The notes beneath the pieces are model-generated. The model did not search any database, had not been told where the DNA came from, and saw only the letters and a program-made list of their open reading frames with translations. From a virus: a stretch of 38,903 bases of DNA. The DNA is taken from positions 1 to 38,903 of IMG/VR virus record IMGVR_UViG_3300046463_000397; one strand, given 5' to 3'. Below, one piece after another: positions 3,052-38,903 of this stretch (positions are counted from its first letter, which is position 1; every line of letters starts with the position of its first letter). The position numbers and the translations under genes were made by a program.

Positions 3052-3139
3052 TGGTGGGTCGCCATGGATTCGAACCACGTGTGCTCTGTTGAGCGCCGGA
3101 TTTACAGTCCGGGGCAGTCGCCTATGCTGCGCGCGACCC
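3052..3139 (-). tRNA. tRNA-Tyr (anticodon GTA)
   Basis: 88 nt with encoded CCA. The acceptor stem GGGTCGC/GCGACCC is perfect. The D stem is GCAG/CTGC with GG in the loop. The anticodon stem CCGGA/TCCGG holds loop CTGTAAA (anticodon GTA). There is a long variable arm with stem GCTC/GAGC, as in bacterial class II tRNA-Tyr, and a T stem with loop TTCGAAT. Its 5' end directly abuts the stop codon of the 157-aa gene (stop 3142-3140, tRNA from 3139), so it is cut from that mRNA. No integrase or att duplication is visible, so it is phage cargo rather than an attachment-site remnant. Confidence 0.95.
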
Positions 3140-3613
3140 TCAGATATGTATAGGTGCGTCAGATGCGAGTGCGTCAACAACCTGCCGAACGAGCGCCATC
3201 AGGTGCTTCACTTGCGAGAGTCTGGTGCCATAGCCGCGGCAAGTGACGGTCTCGTCTCCGGTGCTGCAGGTCAAGGTACTTTTGACCGAAAACACTGCAG
3301 TTTCATTATCGAGACCGGACACGTAAGCATAGCCAGACATATCAACGGTGACCGCGATTCCGGGGGCTGATGTCAGGTCGAGACGCAGCTCCTTGATAAG
3401 CAACAGCGAAGACAGCTTTTCGAAGAGCCACTTTAGCGATTCGAAATGCTCGCGCTCGACGGGATTGCTGCAGTACACGTATGTGCGGTCGCCGTCGCTC
3501 TCAAACCGGCAGCAATCCTGCGGTTCGCCTCCAGCGATGATGCCCTCGAGGGTGACCGTTCCGTGTTCGCGGTTGACGGCCGCGACGAGGGTGGAGAAGT
3601 GATTCAGACTCAT
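3140..3613 (-). CDS. Hypothetical protein co-transcribed with tRNA-Tyr
   Basis: 157 aa, starting MSLNHFSTLVAAVNREHGTV and ending DALASDAPIHI. It has no signal peptide or membrane segment. The composition is mixed alpha/beta with several Cys (QDCCRFE, YVYCSNP, TLTCSTGDETVTC) that do not form an obvious zinc ribbon. The TGA is immediately followed by the first base of the tRNA. A promoter TCGACA-N16-TATACT lies at 3678-3651, about 40 bases upstream of the ATG. No family recognised. Confidence 0.72.
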   Translation of the reverse strand: MSLNHFSTLVAAVNREHGTVTLEGIIAGGEPQDCCRFESDGDRTYVYCSNPVEREHFESLKWLFEKLSSLLLIKELRLDLTSAPGIAVTVDMSGYAYVSGLDNETAVFSVKSTLTCSTGDETVTCRGYGTRLSQVKHLMALVRQVVDALASDAPIHI

Positions 3614-5743: not shown

Positions 5744-8053
5744 TTAGATGGGCAGGCCGTTGTCGTAGTCGTCATCGCGGCCGTCGCGCATCGGCGGGAC
5801 GCGGAACACGGTGCCGACTTTCTTGTGCACGCCGTCTTCGCCGGTGAGCTTGCGCAGCACCTTGCCCATGAGAACCTGCTGCGAGCGGGCCGGCTTTTCG
5901 TAGCCGATAGCGACCAGCACTTCGGTTGCCGTCATCTCGCGGCGGATACTGGAATCCCAATCGAGCTTCGAGCGGGTCATTTCCTCTTCCGGCGTCACCT
6001 GTTCGTGCTTCGCGTTGAGGTTGGCCAGCGATTCGTTCTCTTCCGGCGTCAACCACCACTGCTCGCCGGTGCGGTAGTGCGTGAGGAGCTCCGCCCACAC
6101 CTGCTGCATGTCGATGCCGTGGTCGTAGTTGATGTGCACGGCCGGCACCGTCCACCAGCGGCGGTTACCCGTATCGTCGACCAGGTACGTCGGCTCGTTC
6201 ACCGACGCGCAGAACACCGTGCGGCGCTGGTATTCCGACTCGACGCGGTCATACGGGCGGCGCAGCTTGTCGGCGGCCTTCGTCACGAATGCCTTGAGCT
6301 TCGCGATGTCAGCCTTGCGGAACGTTGCGTCCAGTTCGCCCAGCTCGACGAGCCAGTGCGACACGACGTTTACGATGCTGTCTTTGTCAGACGGGTCCAG
6401 CGTCACGCCATCGAGCGTCACACCCATCTCTGCCGGCACCAGCGCCTTGAACCAGCGCGTCTTGCCCAGGCCCTGACGGCCGGTGAACACAATCGCACCA
6501 TGCGACTCAAAGCCGAACGGGTGGTAAATCGAGGCCACGGCCGAAATGAGCCAGCGGTACATCAGCTTGTTCTTCAGCGACGCGTCACCCTTCACGGTGA
6601 TAGTGTCGAGCAGCGCCTGGATGCGTTCCACACCATCCCACGGCTTCGACTCAATCCACTGGCAGACCGGGTTGTAGCTGTGGGCATCGGCCAGCGCCTT
6701 CACGTAGTCTGCAAGCATCGTCTGCGGCATGCGGTTGCGAGCGCAGATGCTGGTGAGCTGGGCGAGCGCGACGTTGCCGCGGTTGTCCATCGTGTTGCCT
6801 TCGCGGCCCGGGATAGTCAGCTCGACGGCCTTGCGCACTTCGTTGTACTTCGCCGTGATGCCGAACGCCTCCATCAGCTTCTCGAGGTTCTCGATGGTGT
6901 TGAGCGGCTGGCCCTTTTCGCTGGCGTCACGTGCCCAGTCGAGCTCGAGCTTCGAGTCGATGGTGGCGTACTTGACGGCAGCCGGAGCAGCGGGCAGCGG
7001 TGCCGACTCCATCTCGTCGAGCGTAGGACCGCCGGCCGCGACGCTTTCCGGGAAGCTCTCGTGCGTCTTCAGGTAGGAGAGGGTGTCTGCGGTCGTCCAT
7101 CCTTCTGCCTGGCCATCAGCGAGGTCCCAGCCGGCGTTGGCGACGTCAGGCTCGTAGTCGACCATGGTGACTGCGTTGCCCTGGGCCTGCAGGTTGGTTG
7201 CGATGGACAGCATTGCTCGTACTCCGGGTTGTTCGTGTTTCGGCAGGATGGCGCCGGTGGTTTTGTCAGTGTGTGCGTCAAAGTCAGGCCAGAGCGTCAC
7301 GTGGCGGCCGGCGAGCGGGCTCACGTCGGCGCGGGCGGCGGTGGCGACACCACCAAGCCAGGCCATGACGATGGCTGCGTTGCCGAAGAGCTCCTGGGCG
7401 GCGTCAGCGGCCTTCTCGCCTTCGACGATGACCACTTGCTTCAGCGGGTCAGCTGCGAGCTTCTCCAGGCCGTAGAGCGGGCGCGGCGTGTCGTTACCCG
7501 TGATGCCGCGGAAGCTCCAGCGTTCCGTGCCGTCCGGATTCTTGACCCAGGTGTACGGCGTGATTTGCTTGCGGCCGTCGGCGGGCTCATAGCGCAGGAT
7601 GTACATCATCAGCTCGCCAGCCTCGTTGCGATACTCCCACTTGCGGGCCGGGGTGCCGTGTTCCGGGTGATAGAACGTCGGCGCCTTTGCGTGGGCCGGG
7701 ACGGGCATAACCAGGACGGGCTTCGGTTCTTCGACGCGCGGCTTCGATGCCGATGCGAGCGCAGCCTTGCGGGCGGTGTCGTCGATGCTGATGCCGTTGT
7801 TCTCTGCCAGCTCTTTTGCCGCTTCGCCTTGCGTCATGCCGTGGAGGTGGGCGTAGAGCGAAATCATGTCGTTTCCGCTAACACCCTCGTCAGCGAAGTC
7901 TTTCCATTTGCCCGTCTTCATGTTGATGGTGAAGCTGCGCTGACCTGCCGGCACCCATTCGTTGCCCTTGCGCTTGCCTTCGGGGAACCACAGCGGAGCC
8001 ATGATTTCCGGGTTGAGGTTGGCTTTGATTACTGCGAAATCTGCTTTTTGCAT
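5744..8053 (-). CDS. VapE-type primase-helicase
   Basis: 769 aa. The N-terminal part (about 1-95) looks like a primase zinc-region replacement (GKWKDFADEGVSGNDMISL) with no complete cysteine set. A Toprim-like region has VIVEGEKAAD at 208-217 and WPDFDAH at 255-261. The C-terminal virulence-associated-E helicase has Walker A GRQGLGKT at 525-532, a Walker B-like segment ending GELD near 575, and the downstream NRRWWTVP signature. Such proteins open and prime phage or satellite origins. The plausible origin is the GGTGACGAA array at 9.0-9.3 kb, about 1 kb upstream. It gives the element a second replication system besides Rep. No clear RBS precedes the ATG. Confidence 0.9.
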   Translation of the reverse strand: MQKADFAVIKANLNPEIMAPLWFPEGKRKGNEWVPAGQRSFTINMKTGKWKDFADEGVSGNDMISLYAHLHGMTQGEAAKELAENNGISIDDTARKAALASASKPRVEEPKPVLVMPVPAHAKAPTFYHPEHGTPARKWEYRNEAGELMMYILRYEPADGRKQITPYTWVKNPDGTERWSFRGITGNDTPRPLYGLEKLAADPLKQVVIVEGEKAADAAQELFGNAAIVMAWLGGVATAARADVSPLAGRHVTLWPDFDAHTDKTTGAILPKHEQPGVRAMLSIATNLQAQGNAVTMVDYEPDVANAGWDLADGQAEGWTTADTLSYLKTHESFPESVAAGGPTLDEMESAPLPAAPAAVKYATIDSKLELDWARDASEKGQPLNTIENLEKLMEAFGITAKYNEVRKAVELTIPGREGNTMDNRGNVALAQLTSICARNRMPQTMLADYVKALADAHSYNPVCQWIESKPWDGVERIQALLDTITVKGDASLKNKLMYRWLISAVASIYHPFGFESHGAIVFTGRQGLGKTRWFKALVPAEMGVTLDGVTLDPSDKDSIVNVVSHWLVELGELDATFRKADIAKLKAFVTKAADKLRRPYDRVESEYQRRTVFCASVNEPTYLVDDTGNRRWWTVPAVHINYDHGIDMQQVWAELLTHYRTGEQWWLTPEENESLANLNAKHEQVTPEEEMTRSKLDWDSSIRREMTATEVLVAIGYEKPARSQQVLMGKVLRKLTGEDGVHKKVGTVFRVPPMRDGRDDDYDNGLPI

Positions 8054-8107: not shown

Positions 8108-8302
8108 TTACTGCTTTGCTGCGGCGACGGTGAGCTCGAGCAGGCGGAACGAATGCTCAGGAATCACTTGCTTGCGGGCGTTGTCGCTGCGCCAGATGCG
8201 CACGGTCTGATTGCTGCGGCCGAGCATTTTCGACACGTCGGTGATGCTCAGCTGGTGCTGCTCCATGAAGTCGAGCAGGCGGGTGGTGCGTTCGTGAATC
8301 AT
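8108..8302 (-). CDS. Small HTH DNA-binding protein A (64 aa)
   Basis: The start is set at the ATG at 8302 (MIHERTTRLLDFMEQH), with AGGAG eight bases upstream. A longer frame to 8461 lacks an RBS and runs through a hairpin. The HTH region is LSITDVSKMLGRSNQTVRIWRSD: helix, turn, recognition helix. It is a paralogue of the 60-aa protein at 8593-8775 (shared ERT.RLL..MEQH, QTVRIWRSDN, VIP, LLEL). These are the only repressor-like proteins near the divergent control region, so a Cro/CI-like pair is inferred. It would be a minimal regulator with no oligomerisation domain. Confidence 0.75.
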   Translation of the reverse strand: MIHERTTRLLDFMEQHQLSITDVSKMLGRSNQTVRIWRSDNARKQVIPEHSFRLLELTVAAAKQ

Positions 8303-8364
8303 GAGGATACTCCTGGTGGTGAGGGTTCGTATAGTGTGCAATGCGCTGTTTGCATCGACGAACA

Positions 8365-8392
8365 AGTATAACGTGCAATTCGCTATTGTCGA
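8365..8392 (-). promoter_or_regulatory. Promoter for HTH protein A and the primase-helicase operon
   Basis: Minus strand TCGACA at 8392-8387, 16-base spacer ending ATTGCACGT, TATACT at 8370-8365. A weaker ATTGCACAC-TATACG follows at about 8340-8328. Confidence 0.65.
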
Positions 8393-8420
8393 GTGGTTGA
8401 ACGGGTCACCACGCCAGGAA

Positions 8421-8457
8421 GCGTGAAAACTGCCCAGGCCAATGGCAGCTTTCACGC
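8421..8457. repeat. Strong inverted repeat between the two HTH genes
   Basis: GCGTGAAA pairs with TTTCACGC, then one mismatch, then CTGCC pairs with GGCAG, leaving a 9-base loop. No T tract follows on either strand, so it is not an ordinary terminator. The rest of 8403-8546 shows a smaller hairpin (ATAGCC-GAA-GGCTAT near 8493) and no coding signal. Confidence 0.6.
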
Positions 8458-8546
8458 GCATTGAATGTTTCTATCGGCGGAGCCGGGACTAATAGCCGAA
8501 GGCTATGTGGCGGAGCGGAGCGTAGGAGTGCGAAAGGTAGAGGCGT

Positions 8547-8592: not shown

Positions 8593-8775
8593 CTACTTGC
8601 CGCGGTTTGCGATGAGCAGCTCGAGGAGCTTCAGCGCGTCGGCGGGTATCACCTGATTGTCGCTGCGCCAGATGCGCACGGTCTGCGGCGCACGGCCCAG
8701 GATTTCGGCTACGTCGGCAACTTCGAGGCGGTGCTGTTCCATCAGTTCGAGCAGGCGCTTCGTGCGTTCGTTCAT
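8593..8775 (-). CDS. Small HTH DNA-binding protein B (60 aa)
   Basis: The start is at the ATG at 8775 (MNERTKRLLELMEQHRLEV). An extended frame to 8835 would cross the promoter. The HTH is VADVAEILGRAPQTVRIWRSDN, followed by VIPADALKLLELLI. It is a paralogue of protein A, with nearly every landmark in the same place but a shorter linker after RSDN. Its own terminator lies at 8570-8547 and a CATTCGT-N4-ACGAATG dyad at 8833-8850 overlaps its promoter region. Repeated TAACTAT/ATAGTTA motifs at 8766-8800 and 8861-8890 could be additional sites. Probably the lysogeny repressor or its antagonist. Confidence 0.75.
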   Translation of the reverse strand: MNERTKRLLELMEQHRLEVADVAEILGRAPQTVRIWRSDNQVIPADALKLLELLIANRGK

Positions 8776-8832
8776 AGTTAACAGTTGTATCAGATAGTTA
8801 AGCAAGTGACGCAAGTATAAACGGTGCCATAC

Positions 8833-8850
8833 CATTCGTAGGCACGAATG
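8833..8850. promoter_or_regulatory. Dyad operator CATTCGT-AGGC-ACGAATG
   Basis: Perfect 7-bp arms around a 4-base spacer. It lies upstream of a minus-strand TATACT (about 8816-8811) that would serve HTH protein B, close to its -35 region. Same dyad as at 36814-36831. Confidence 0.7.
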
Positions 8851-9020
8851 CGATTGTTTTTAACTATGACGCCGATAGCCAAAAACTATTGATAATTGCT
8901 ATTATGTCAAATCGCACACCCATACGCGGTGAGCGTACGGCATTTCCGTGTCCTGGAGGCACTCTCAGCACTGAGCTGAAAGACGGGCCTTCAGGGTGTC
9001 GCAGGCTCGAAATCGCTCCT

Positions 9021-9327
9021 GGTGACGCTTGGTGACGAAGTCGTTCGTCACCGGTGACGAAGTTTTTGAAAAGTTCGTCACCCGATAAAGCCCAGTATTT
9101 ACAGGCTCTTCTCTCGAAAAAAAGGCTCGGTGACGAAGGTGACGAAGAAAACAACATTTATAAGGGGGCTATCTGATTGTTTGTATTTTGCCGATAGCCT
9201 GCCCTTCAGTATGGGAAAAGTTCGTCACCTTCGTCACCAGGGGGTGTTTTTTCGCAAAAAGACACTGCAATAACAAGGTGAAATCGCGGTGACGAAGTCT
9301 GAAAAAGTTCGTCACCACTTCGTCACC
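9021..9327. repeat. GGTGACGAA repeat array, candidate phage replication origin
   Basis: Eleven perfect copies of GGTGACGAA plus one GGTGACGCT in 307 bp. Plus strand: 9021 (variant), 9031, 9053, 9129, 9138, 9288. Minus strand: 9044, 9074, 9221, 9230, 9308, 9319. They form inverted pairs around A/T-rich spacers (9053/9074 and 9288/9308) and a large nested palindrome (9129-9146 against 9221-9238) that encloses GGGCTATC/GATAGCC arms. No credible gene occupies 8776-9444. The array lies between the leftward replication operon and the rightward late operon, where a lytic origin or a multi-operator switch would be expected. Confidence 0.85.
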
Positions 9328-9388: not shown

Positions 9389-9417
9389 TTGGCTGATGAC
9401 GCATTGCACGCTATACT
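9389..9417 (+). promoter_or_regulatory. Rightward promoter for the Mor-like activator
   Basis: TTGGCT, 17-base spacer ending GCATTGCACGC, TATACT at 9412-9417. The ATTGCACGCTATACT block is identical to that at 26661-26675. Confidence 0.7.
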
Positions 9418-9444: not shown

Positions 9445-9900
9445 GTGTTGACGAACCTGCCCGATTCCGTCCAGGAGATTGCGGACGTCATCGGTCGAGA
9501 GCGCGCGCTGTACCTGATTGGACAGCTGCCGCGGTACACGAGCAAAGACCACCGATGGAGCGCTGCTGCGCCCTCTCGCGTGCTGCTCTATGTGCCGAAA
9601 GCCTCTCGACTGACTGACCGACACAAGCTTGTGCGGATTCTCGGATGGCGCGACGCAGTGAGGCTTTGCGAGGTGTTTGGCGGTGAGATTCTGAAGCCGG
9701 CGAACTGCTCCTGTATCTACAAGCGATACCGGGACACGCAGATTCTGCGGCTGGCAAAAGACGGACTCGATTCATCCCGAATTTCAGCACTCATCGGCGT
9801 CAGCGCTTCGCAGGTGCGGCTCATTCTGCAACGTATCTCGCAGGAGGAACGCAGCTCCGCAACTGACGACAATGAGCCGTATACCACCAAACACACCTGA
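9445..9900 (+). CDS. Mor/C-like transcription activator of late genes
   Basis: 151 aa from a GTG at 9445 (then TTG ACG) with GGAG four bases upstream. The N-terminal LPDSVQEIADVIGRERALYLIGQLP, the YVPK in the middle and the C-terminal RDTQILRLAKDGLDSSRISALIGVSASQVRLIL match the Mor transcription activator family (a dimerisation segment followed by a wing-less HTH). In Mu-type phages such proteins switch on middle or late transcription. Here it is first in the rightward operon ahead of lysis and head genes, replacing the Ogr activator typical of P2. The last codons carry the degenerate copy of the 20-bp late repeat. Confidence 0.8.
   Translation: MLTNLPDSVQEIADVIGRERALYLIGQLPRYTSKDHRWSAAAPSRVLLYVPKASRLTDRHKLVRILGWRDAVRLCEVFGGEILKPANCSCIYKRYRDTQILRLAKDGLDSSRISALIGVSASQVRLILQRISQEERSSATDDNEPYTTKHT
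9833..9848 (+). repeat. Late dispersed repeat, degenerate copy 1
   Basis: GTATCTCGCAGGAGGA, matching the last 16 bases of the 20-bp element GCGCCTATCTCG-YW-GGAGGA except its first base. It is 60 bases ahead of the first lysis gene. Confidence 0.55.
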
Positions 9901-38658: not shown

Positions 38659-38676
38659 ACGTTGCATTTGTCCGAA
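38659..38676 (+). repeat. Distal iteron downstream of rep
   Basis: ACGTTGCATTTGTCCGAA, one or two mismatches from the origin iterons, in direct orientation. It is about 1 kb from the main origin, beyond the 3' end of rep. Confidence 0.75.
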
Positions 38677-38751
38677 TGCCTGAAACGGTTGTCCGGCAAG
38701 GATTCTGGCCAAAACGAGTCCTGAGCTAGTCGTACAAACAGGACGGTTGCA

Positions 38752-38769
38752 TTCGGACAGATACAACGT
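38752..38769 (-). repeat. Distal inverted iteron overlapping the rep stop codon
   Basis: The minus strand reads ACGTTGTATCTGTCCGAA, identical to the iteron at 935-952. It overlaps the first base of the rep TGA. Degenerate copies (CGGTTGTCCG, CGGTTGCATTCGGACA) lie between this site and 38659. Confidence 0.8.
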
Positions 38770-38903
38770 CAGTCGGACGCCTCGCCATCATGTCCGAATA
38801 GGCTGGGCTGCATTTCGGGAGAGAACGAGAACTCCAGGCTCGACACCTTACGACCACCAAGCCTGACGGCCTTCCACTCAATGTCCATCGGCACACGCTC
38901 ACG
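38769..38903 (-). CDS. rep: Replication initiator protein, C-terminal end (continues at position 127 downward)
   Basis: This is the 3' end of the rep gene after the circular join. It contains the final codons ending GHDGEASD and the TGA stop at 38771-38769. The stop codon overlaps by one base an inverted iteron at 38752-38769, so the coding end and a Rep binding site touch. Positions 38777-38903 duplicate window positions 1-127 and are not a second gene copy. Confidence 0.85.
   Translation of the reverse strand, partial: RERVPMDIEWKAVRLGGRKVSSLEFSFSPEMQPSLFGHDGEASD
38777..38903. repeat. 127-bp terminal direct repeat, right copy
   Basis: Exact copy of positions 1-127. It duplicates codons from the 3' part of rep. 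It should be collapsed to one copy when the circle is closed. Confidence 0.95.

Follow-up and report, generated by a model that had tools for sequence, protein, structure and literature searches.

A mirrored iteron array as the probable origin of a VapE-type primase-helicase in an apparent phage-plasmid

The P4 record annotates type 1 repeats, GGTGAACA, directly downstream of the alpha gene (crr), and at ori, where they separate the alpha operon, which runs leftward, from the rightward sid-delta-psu operon. The origin-binding domain of alpha has been described as a winged helix (PMC10516667). In SaPIs, origins sit directly downstream of rep, and the Rep helicases recognise iterons through their C-terminal domain (PMC7581432). 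For the related protein Cch2, the isolated C-terminal domain binds its putative origin (PMC7581432).

We analyzed a 38,903-nt stretch of viral DNA (the window), in which an intergenic array of short repeats separates a leftward operon, comprising two small HTH genes and then a VapE-type primase-helicase gene, from a rightward operon headed by a late activator. P4 and the window both have short repeats of GGTGA type that occur on either strand and, in tandem, at a pitch of 9–10 bp. They differ in that P4 has two arrays (ori1 and crr) with the unit GGTGAACA, whereas the window has one, with the unit GGTGACGAA. The proposed initiator is also different, VapE (PF05272) rather than alpha, and the activator is phrog_836-like rather than delta. 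With SaPIs the likeness is one of module: the nearest solved relative of the VapE protein (P0001) is SaPI PriRep1. Unlike a SaPI, the window is a full phage genome that also encodes Rep3, and its array lies upstream of the helicase gene. P1 is a phage-plasmid with two origins, oriR and oriL, the latter using RepL. Like P1, the window combines in one genome a probable lytic origin with a plasmid initiator that is separate from it and has iterons, but a VapE primase-helicase would take the place of RepL as lytic initiator. Short repeats in non-coding DNA, an AT-rich core and a primase-helicase of the appropriate family, three features of SF3-type primase-helicase origins, are present. On testable features, then, the array belongs to the broad kind of origin used by P4 alpha and SaPI Rep, and is neither P4 nor SaPI proper.

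The repeat array and its neighborhood

Eleven exact copies of GGTGACGAA, five on the plus strand and six on the minus, lie within 9031–9327, against a chance expectation of about 0.002 in 307 bp; there is none elsewhere in the genome. A degenerate twelfth copy at 9021, GGTGACGCT, retains only GGTGACG. The original prediction of twelve copies, six per strand, therefore holds for the 7-mer GGTGACG but not for the 9-mer GGTGACGAA. Matches with one mismatch number 30 in the window, compared with a mean of 10 and a maximum of 19 in 100 dinucleotide shuffles. The parts of the array are as follows.

9021–9327, no strand assigned: iteron array, proposed VapE-type origin (11 exact GGTGACGAA and one degenerate copy)
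Exact GGTGACGAA starts: 9031+, 9044-, 9053+, 9074-, 9129+, 9138+, 9221-, 9230-, 9288+, 9308-, 9319-
9031–9082, no strand assigned: outer left sites, inverted pairs (+ - + -)
9129–9146, plus: inner left tandem pair, GGTGACGAAGGTGACGAA, 9-bp pitch, a geometry common to relatives
9147–9220, no strand assigned: AT-rich core, proposed melting region, about 60% AT
9164–9204, no strand assigned: imperfect hairpin in the core (GGGGGCTATC ... GATAGCC), including one GCCGATAGCC
9221–9238, minus: inner right tandem pair, a perfect inverted repeat of 9129–9146 (18 nt, 100%)
9288–9327, no strand assigned: outer right sites (+ - -)

A large symmetric structure had been predicted near 9183, and the computed center, 9183.5, agrees. 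Center-to-center gaps between sites run 13, 9, 21, 55, 9, 83 (the central gap), 9, 58, 20 and 11 bp. The inner gaps thus read 55-9-83-9-58, with 21 bp (left) and 20 bp (right) next outward, and the four site pairs closest to the center have mirrored orientations. Between the inner tandem pairs lie 74 nt; this core, flanked by the two repeat sets, ranks in the bottom 0.5% of the genome's 74-bp windows for stability. The GC skew of the genome gave no clear origin signal, and an Rfam search returned no match. Readings of the array as coding repeats or as parS were rejected on location and sequence. The sequence GCCGATAGCC was found at both positions given for it, 8871–8880, before the HTH operon, and 9190–9199, in the core. 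The relative L241 nearly retains, at 3479–3487, the copy that precedes the HTH gene.

The array is upstream of VapE, about 1 kb from its start and beyond the two HTH genes, and the sole promoter-like site on its late side is past the array, with no overlap. The neighboring features are these.

5744–8053, minus: VapE-type primase-helicase, 769 aa (P0001), proposed initiator; Pfam PF05272, E 6e-55
5798–5992, minus: VapE C-terminal domain, residues 688–752, proposed to bind iterons; winged-helix topology in the AlphaFold2 model
8108–8461, minus: second small HTH protein, just upstream of the primase; phrog_14341
8593–8835, minus: small HTH protein, first gene of the leftward operon; phrog_14341, transcriptional repressor
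9389–9417, plus: promoter-like site TTGGCT-17-TATACT between array and activator, a consensus match only
9445–9900, plus: late transcriptional activator, first gene of the rightward operon; phrog_836

The best PDB fold match of P0001 is 7pds (E 2e-20), the dsDNA-bound SaPI helicase PriRep1. AlphaFold2 modeled VapE with a mean pLDDT of 85.7, and the winged-helix topology of residues 688–752 was modeled confidently. The isolated domain has no Pfam match and gave structural matches only at E > 0.2, so we infer iteron binding by the VapE C-terminus from the model and from the analogy with SaPI Rep and P4 alpha.

Arrays in relatives and across VapE loci

The nearest relative, L241 (record G012), encodes an activator 69% identical and a primase 52% identical to those of the window, in the same divergent layout. 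Its array has 13 GGGACAA sites spaced 57-9-69-9-57, versus 55-9-83-9-58 in the window. Array geometry is kept, by this sequence comparison, and the unit is changed. L241 has a ParA match, and no match to an integrase or to Rep3.

Among annotated phages, the closest is Burkholderia phage Mica, whose primase is 56% identical. Repeats of different units precede the late activator in Mica, ep3, Persinger, PPpW-3, L013, L014, L015, L016, KA2-1 and others; in myophages the array is always before the activator, typically 60–140 bp upstream. In Iiscvirinae and similar myophages (Mica, ep3, Persinger, KA2-1), location and inner geometry are as in the window, while the unit differs in each, and most of the relatives checked bear an integrase. 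The records consulted for this group show no origin annotation for the arrays. Absence of the array from close relatives with the same primase had been named as evidence against the original prediction; in the closest relatives, arrays are kept and the repeat unit has changed. Separately, an ice-nucleation-like protein encoded upstream of the Mica primase operon contains tandem coding repeats (L004, 4961–5074), and similar repeats are found in L013 (5126–5528).

Two further relatives depart from this pattern. L237, represented by one incomplete 20-kb record, keeps the activator (45% identical), but neither a match to P0001 nor, ahead of the activator, a visible array was found there; read by eye, the upstream frame appears to encode a different replication protein. 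MQ-4, whose primase is of the Toprim type and lacks a VapE-domain match, has a GTAAC array in the corresponding position, so such arrays are not exclusive to VapE.

Across VapE loci, we searched for a motif-agnostic signature: a tandem 6-mer pair, a core, and an inverted tandem pair. It was found in 29 of 103 loci versus 2 of 309 shuffles. The exact signature is absent from the other 74, many of them distant, including Stenotrophomonas prophages and FoX2. Three control loci were also positive, two of which adjoin other replication genes: in L153 a D5_N/Pox_D5 helicase gene has the array at its 3' end, and the array of L170 adjoins a gene for a replication-initiator-like protein. In VapE phages and plasmids, the geometry recurs with different units, either at the VapE 3' end, as in many other VapE contigs and plasmid pSCU-121-2, or just upstream of the late activator. 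These are the two placements of P4 crr and ori. Dense bidirectional clusters (at least 6 sites) were present at 30 loci, not all independent, and 26 of the 30 fell within one of these two placements, against an expectation of 1.65. Some of the elements whose array lies at the 3' end of VapE showed neither an activator nor a divergent promoter.

A blind DNA scan for tandem GGTGACGAA gave mostly same-strand repeats among the matches listed, and the only bidirectional arrays among them were those of L153 and L170, beside other replication genes. In L170, whose record has no VapE match, a long duplicated sequence flanks the GGTGACGAA/GGTGACGCA array (8600–8990). Over the 29 loci, similarity of the repeat unit did not correlate with similarity of the C-terminal domain (Mantel p 0.81, with five site sets entered by hand). 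In a small, post hoc comparison, one residue of the VapE wing was S with GGGAC units (L013, L015, L093, L006, G012) and T or K with GTGAC units (L011, L005, L007, L016, L010, L236).

Proposed origin function and alternative readings

We propose, with a probability of roughly 0.8, that the phage's VapE-type primase-helicase uses the array as its replication origin, probably for lytic replication. This reading is supported by comparative evidence, namely the array geometry kept in relatives and its recurrence in the same two placements, and the same evidence lends support to the second origin for VapE-type replication originally predicted here. The winged-helix C-terminus of VapE would bind the GGTGACGAA iterons, and helicase assemblies on the two mirrored arms would face each other across the AT-rich core. 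Melting of the core would then allow two helicases to be loaded head to head. The primase-like N-terminal half of VapE may supply primers, from which the host polymerase would copy bidirectionally, away from the core. Assembly is probably stabilized or regulated by the inverted pairs farther out. A mechanism of this sort would match that of P4 and SaPI origins.

An array between divergent operons, with a late activator and two genes for HTH repressor-like proteins close by, might instead be a multi-operator switch, with the small HTH proteins or the activator binding the repeats to choose between leftward early and rightward late transcription. The original prediction offered this as its alternative. 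That the myophage array always precedes the activator, typically at the 60–140 bp spacing given above, means a regulatory role is conceivable too. Yet similar arrays are found at the VapE 3' end in elements with no detectable activator or divergent promoter, and the array of the window stands well clear of the promoter-like site at 9389–9417. Moreover, the repeat unit differs between relatives whose activators remain 45–69% identical, and L237, in its incomplete 20-kb record, has the activator without a visible array. We therefore consider a pure switch improbable. It is less far-fetched, though still on the unlikely side, that the initiator complex of the origin also controls the adjoining late promoter, coupling late transcription to replication. 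This is compatible with the VapE-origin explanation, and is favored by the fact that the array stays next to the activator in myophages even where the units have diverged, and by the same neighborhood in P4; retention of the array in a VapE-type plasmid (L010) that lacks a late operon argues against it.

The genome also encodes Rep3 and ParA, and the array might belong to that plasmid module, as a second iteron set, an incompatibility locus or a parS-like partition locus. However, the TTGCATYTGTCCGA-like Rep iterons sit near the rep gene, about 8 kb from the array, and differ from it in sequence, as originally predicted. In addition, the array geometry is kept in integrase-bearing relatives without a Rep3 match. 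We regard an assignment to the plasmid module as very improbable.

Plasmid module and closed circle

An exact 127-bp terminal repeat (1–127 = 38777–38903) indicates that the window is a closed, probably complete circle of about 38,776 bp, though IMG/VR lists the record as linear. The circle carries the following plasmid features.

1–778, minus: plasmid replication initiator Rep3, across the circle junction; PF01051, E 2e-27
896–951, plus: Rep iterons upstream of rep (TTGCATCTGTCCGA-like)
1622–2305, minus: ParA-like partition ATPase
38662–38766, no strand assigned: Rep iterons on the opposite side of rep

There is no integrase match in the window, and a search for Rep3 relatives in viral contigs found none. 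Because the window is circular, encodes Rep3 with iterons of its own as well as ParA, and has no integrase match, it is apparently a two-origin phage-plasmid. Rep3 with its iterons and ParA would form the second system, which probably maintains the prophage as a plasmid. This apparent phage-plasmid stands among myophages whose checked relatives mostly have an integrase.

A broader model can be put forward tentatively, at somewhat less than even odds. The myophage clade of the window and L241 would consist of two-origin phage-plasmids, and VapE phages generally would keep a fixed mirror geometry while the repeat unit changes together with the C-terminal wing of the initiator, giving each lineage a private initiator–origin code. 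The lifestyle of this group of small myophages has been described as enigmatic (PMC11990801). If the VapE-origin proposal is true, these phages would have testable replication origins, and origins of VapE elements could be found by geometry instead of sequence. The differing units would also provide a natural series of initiator–iteron pairs for studying how origin specificity changes. The proposal also points to plasmid persistence, with a second origin, in some of these phages. The window also carries a tRNA-Tyr gene (anticodon GTA) at 3052–3139 on the minus strand.
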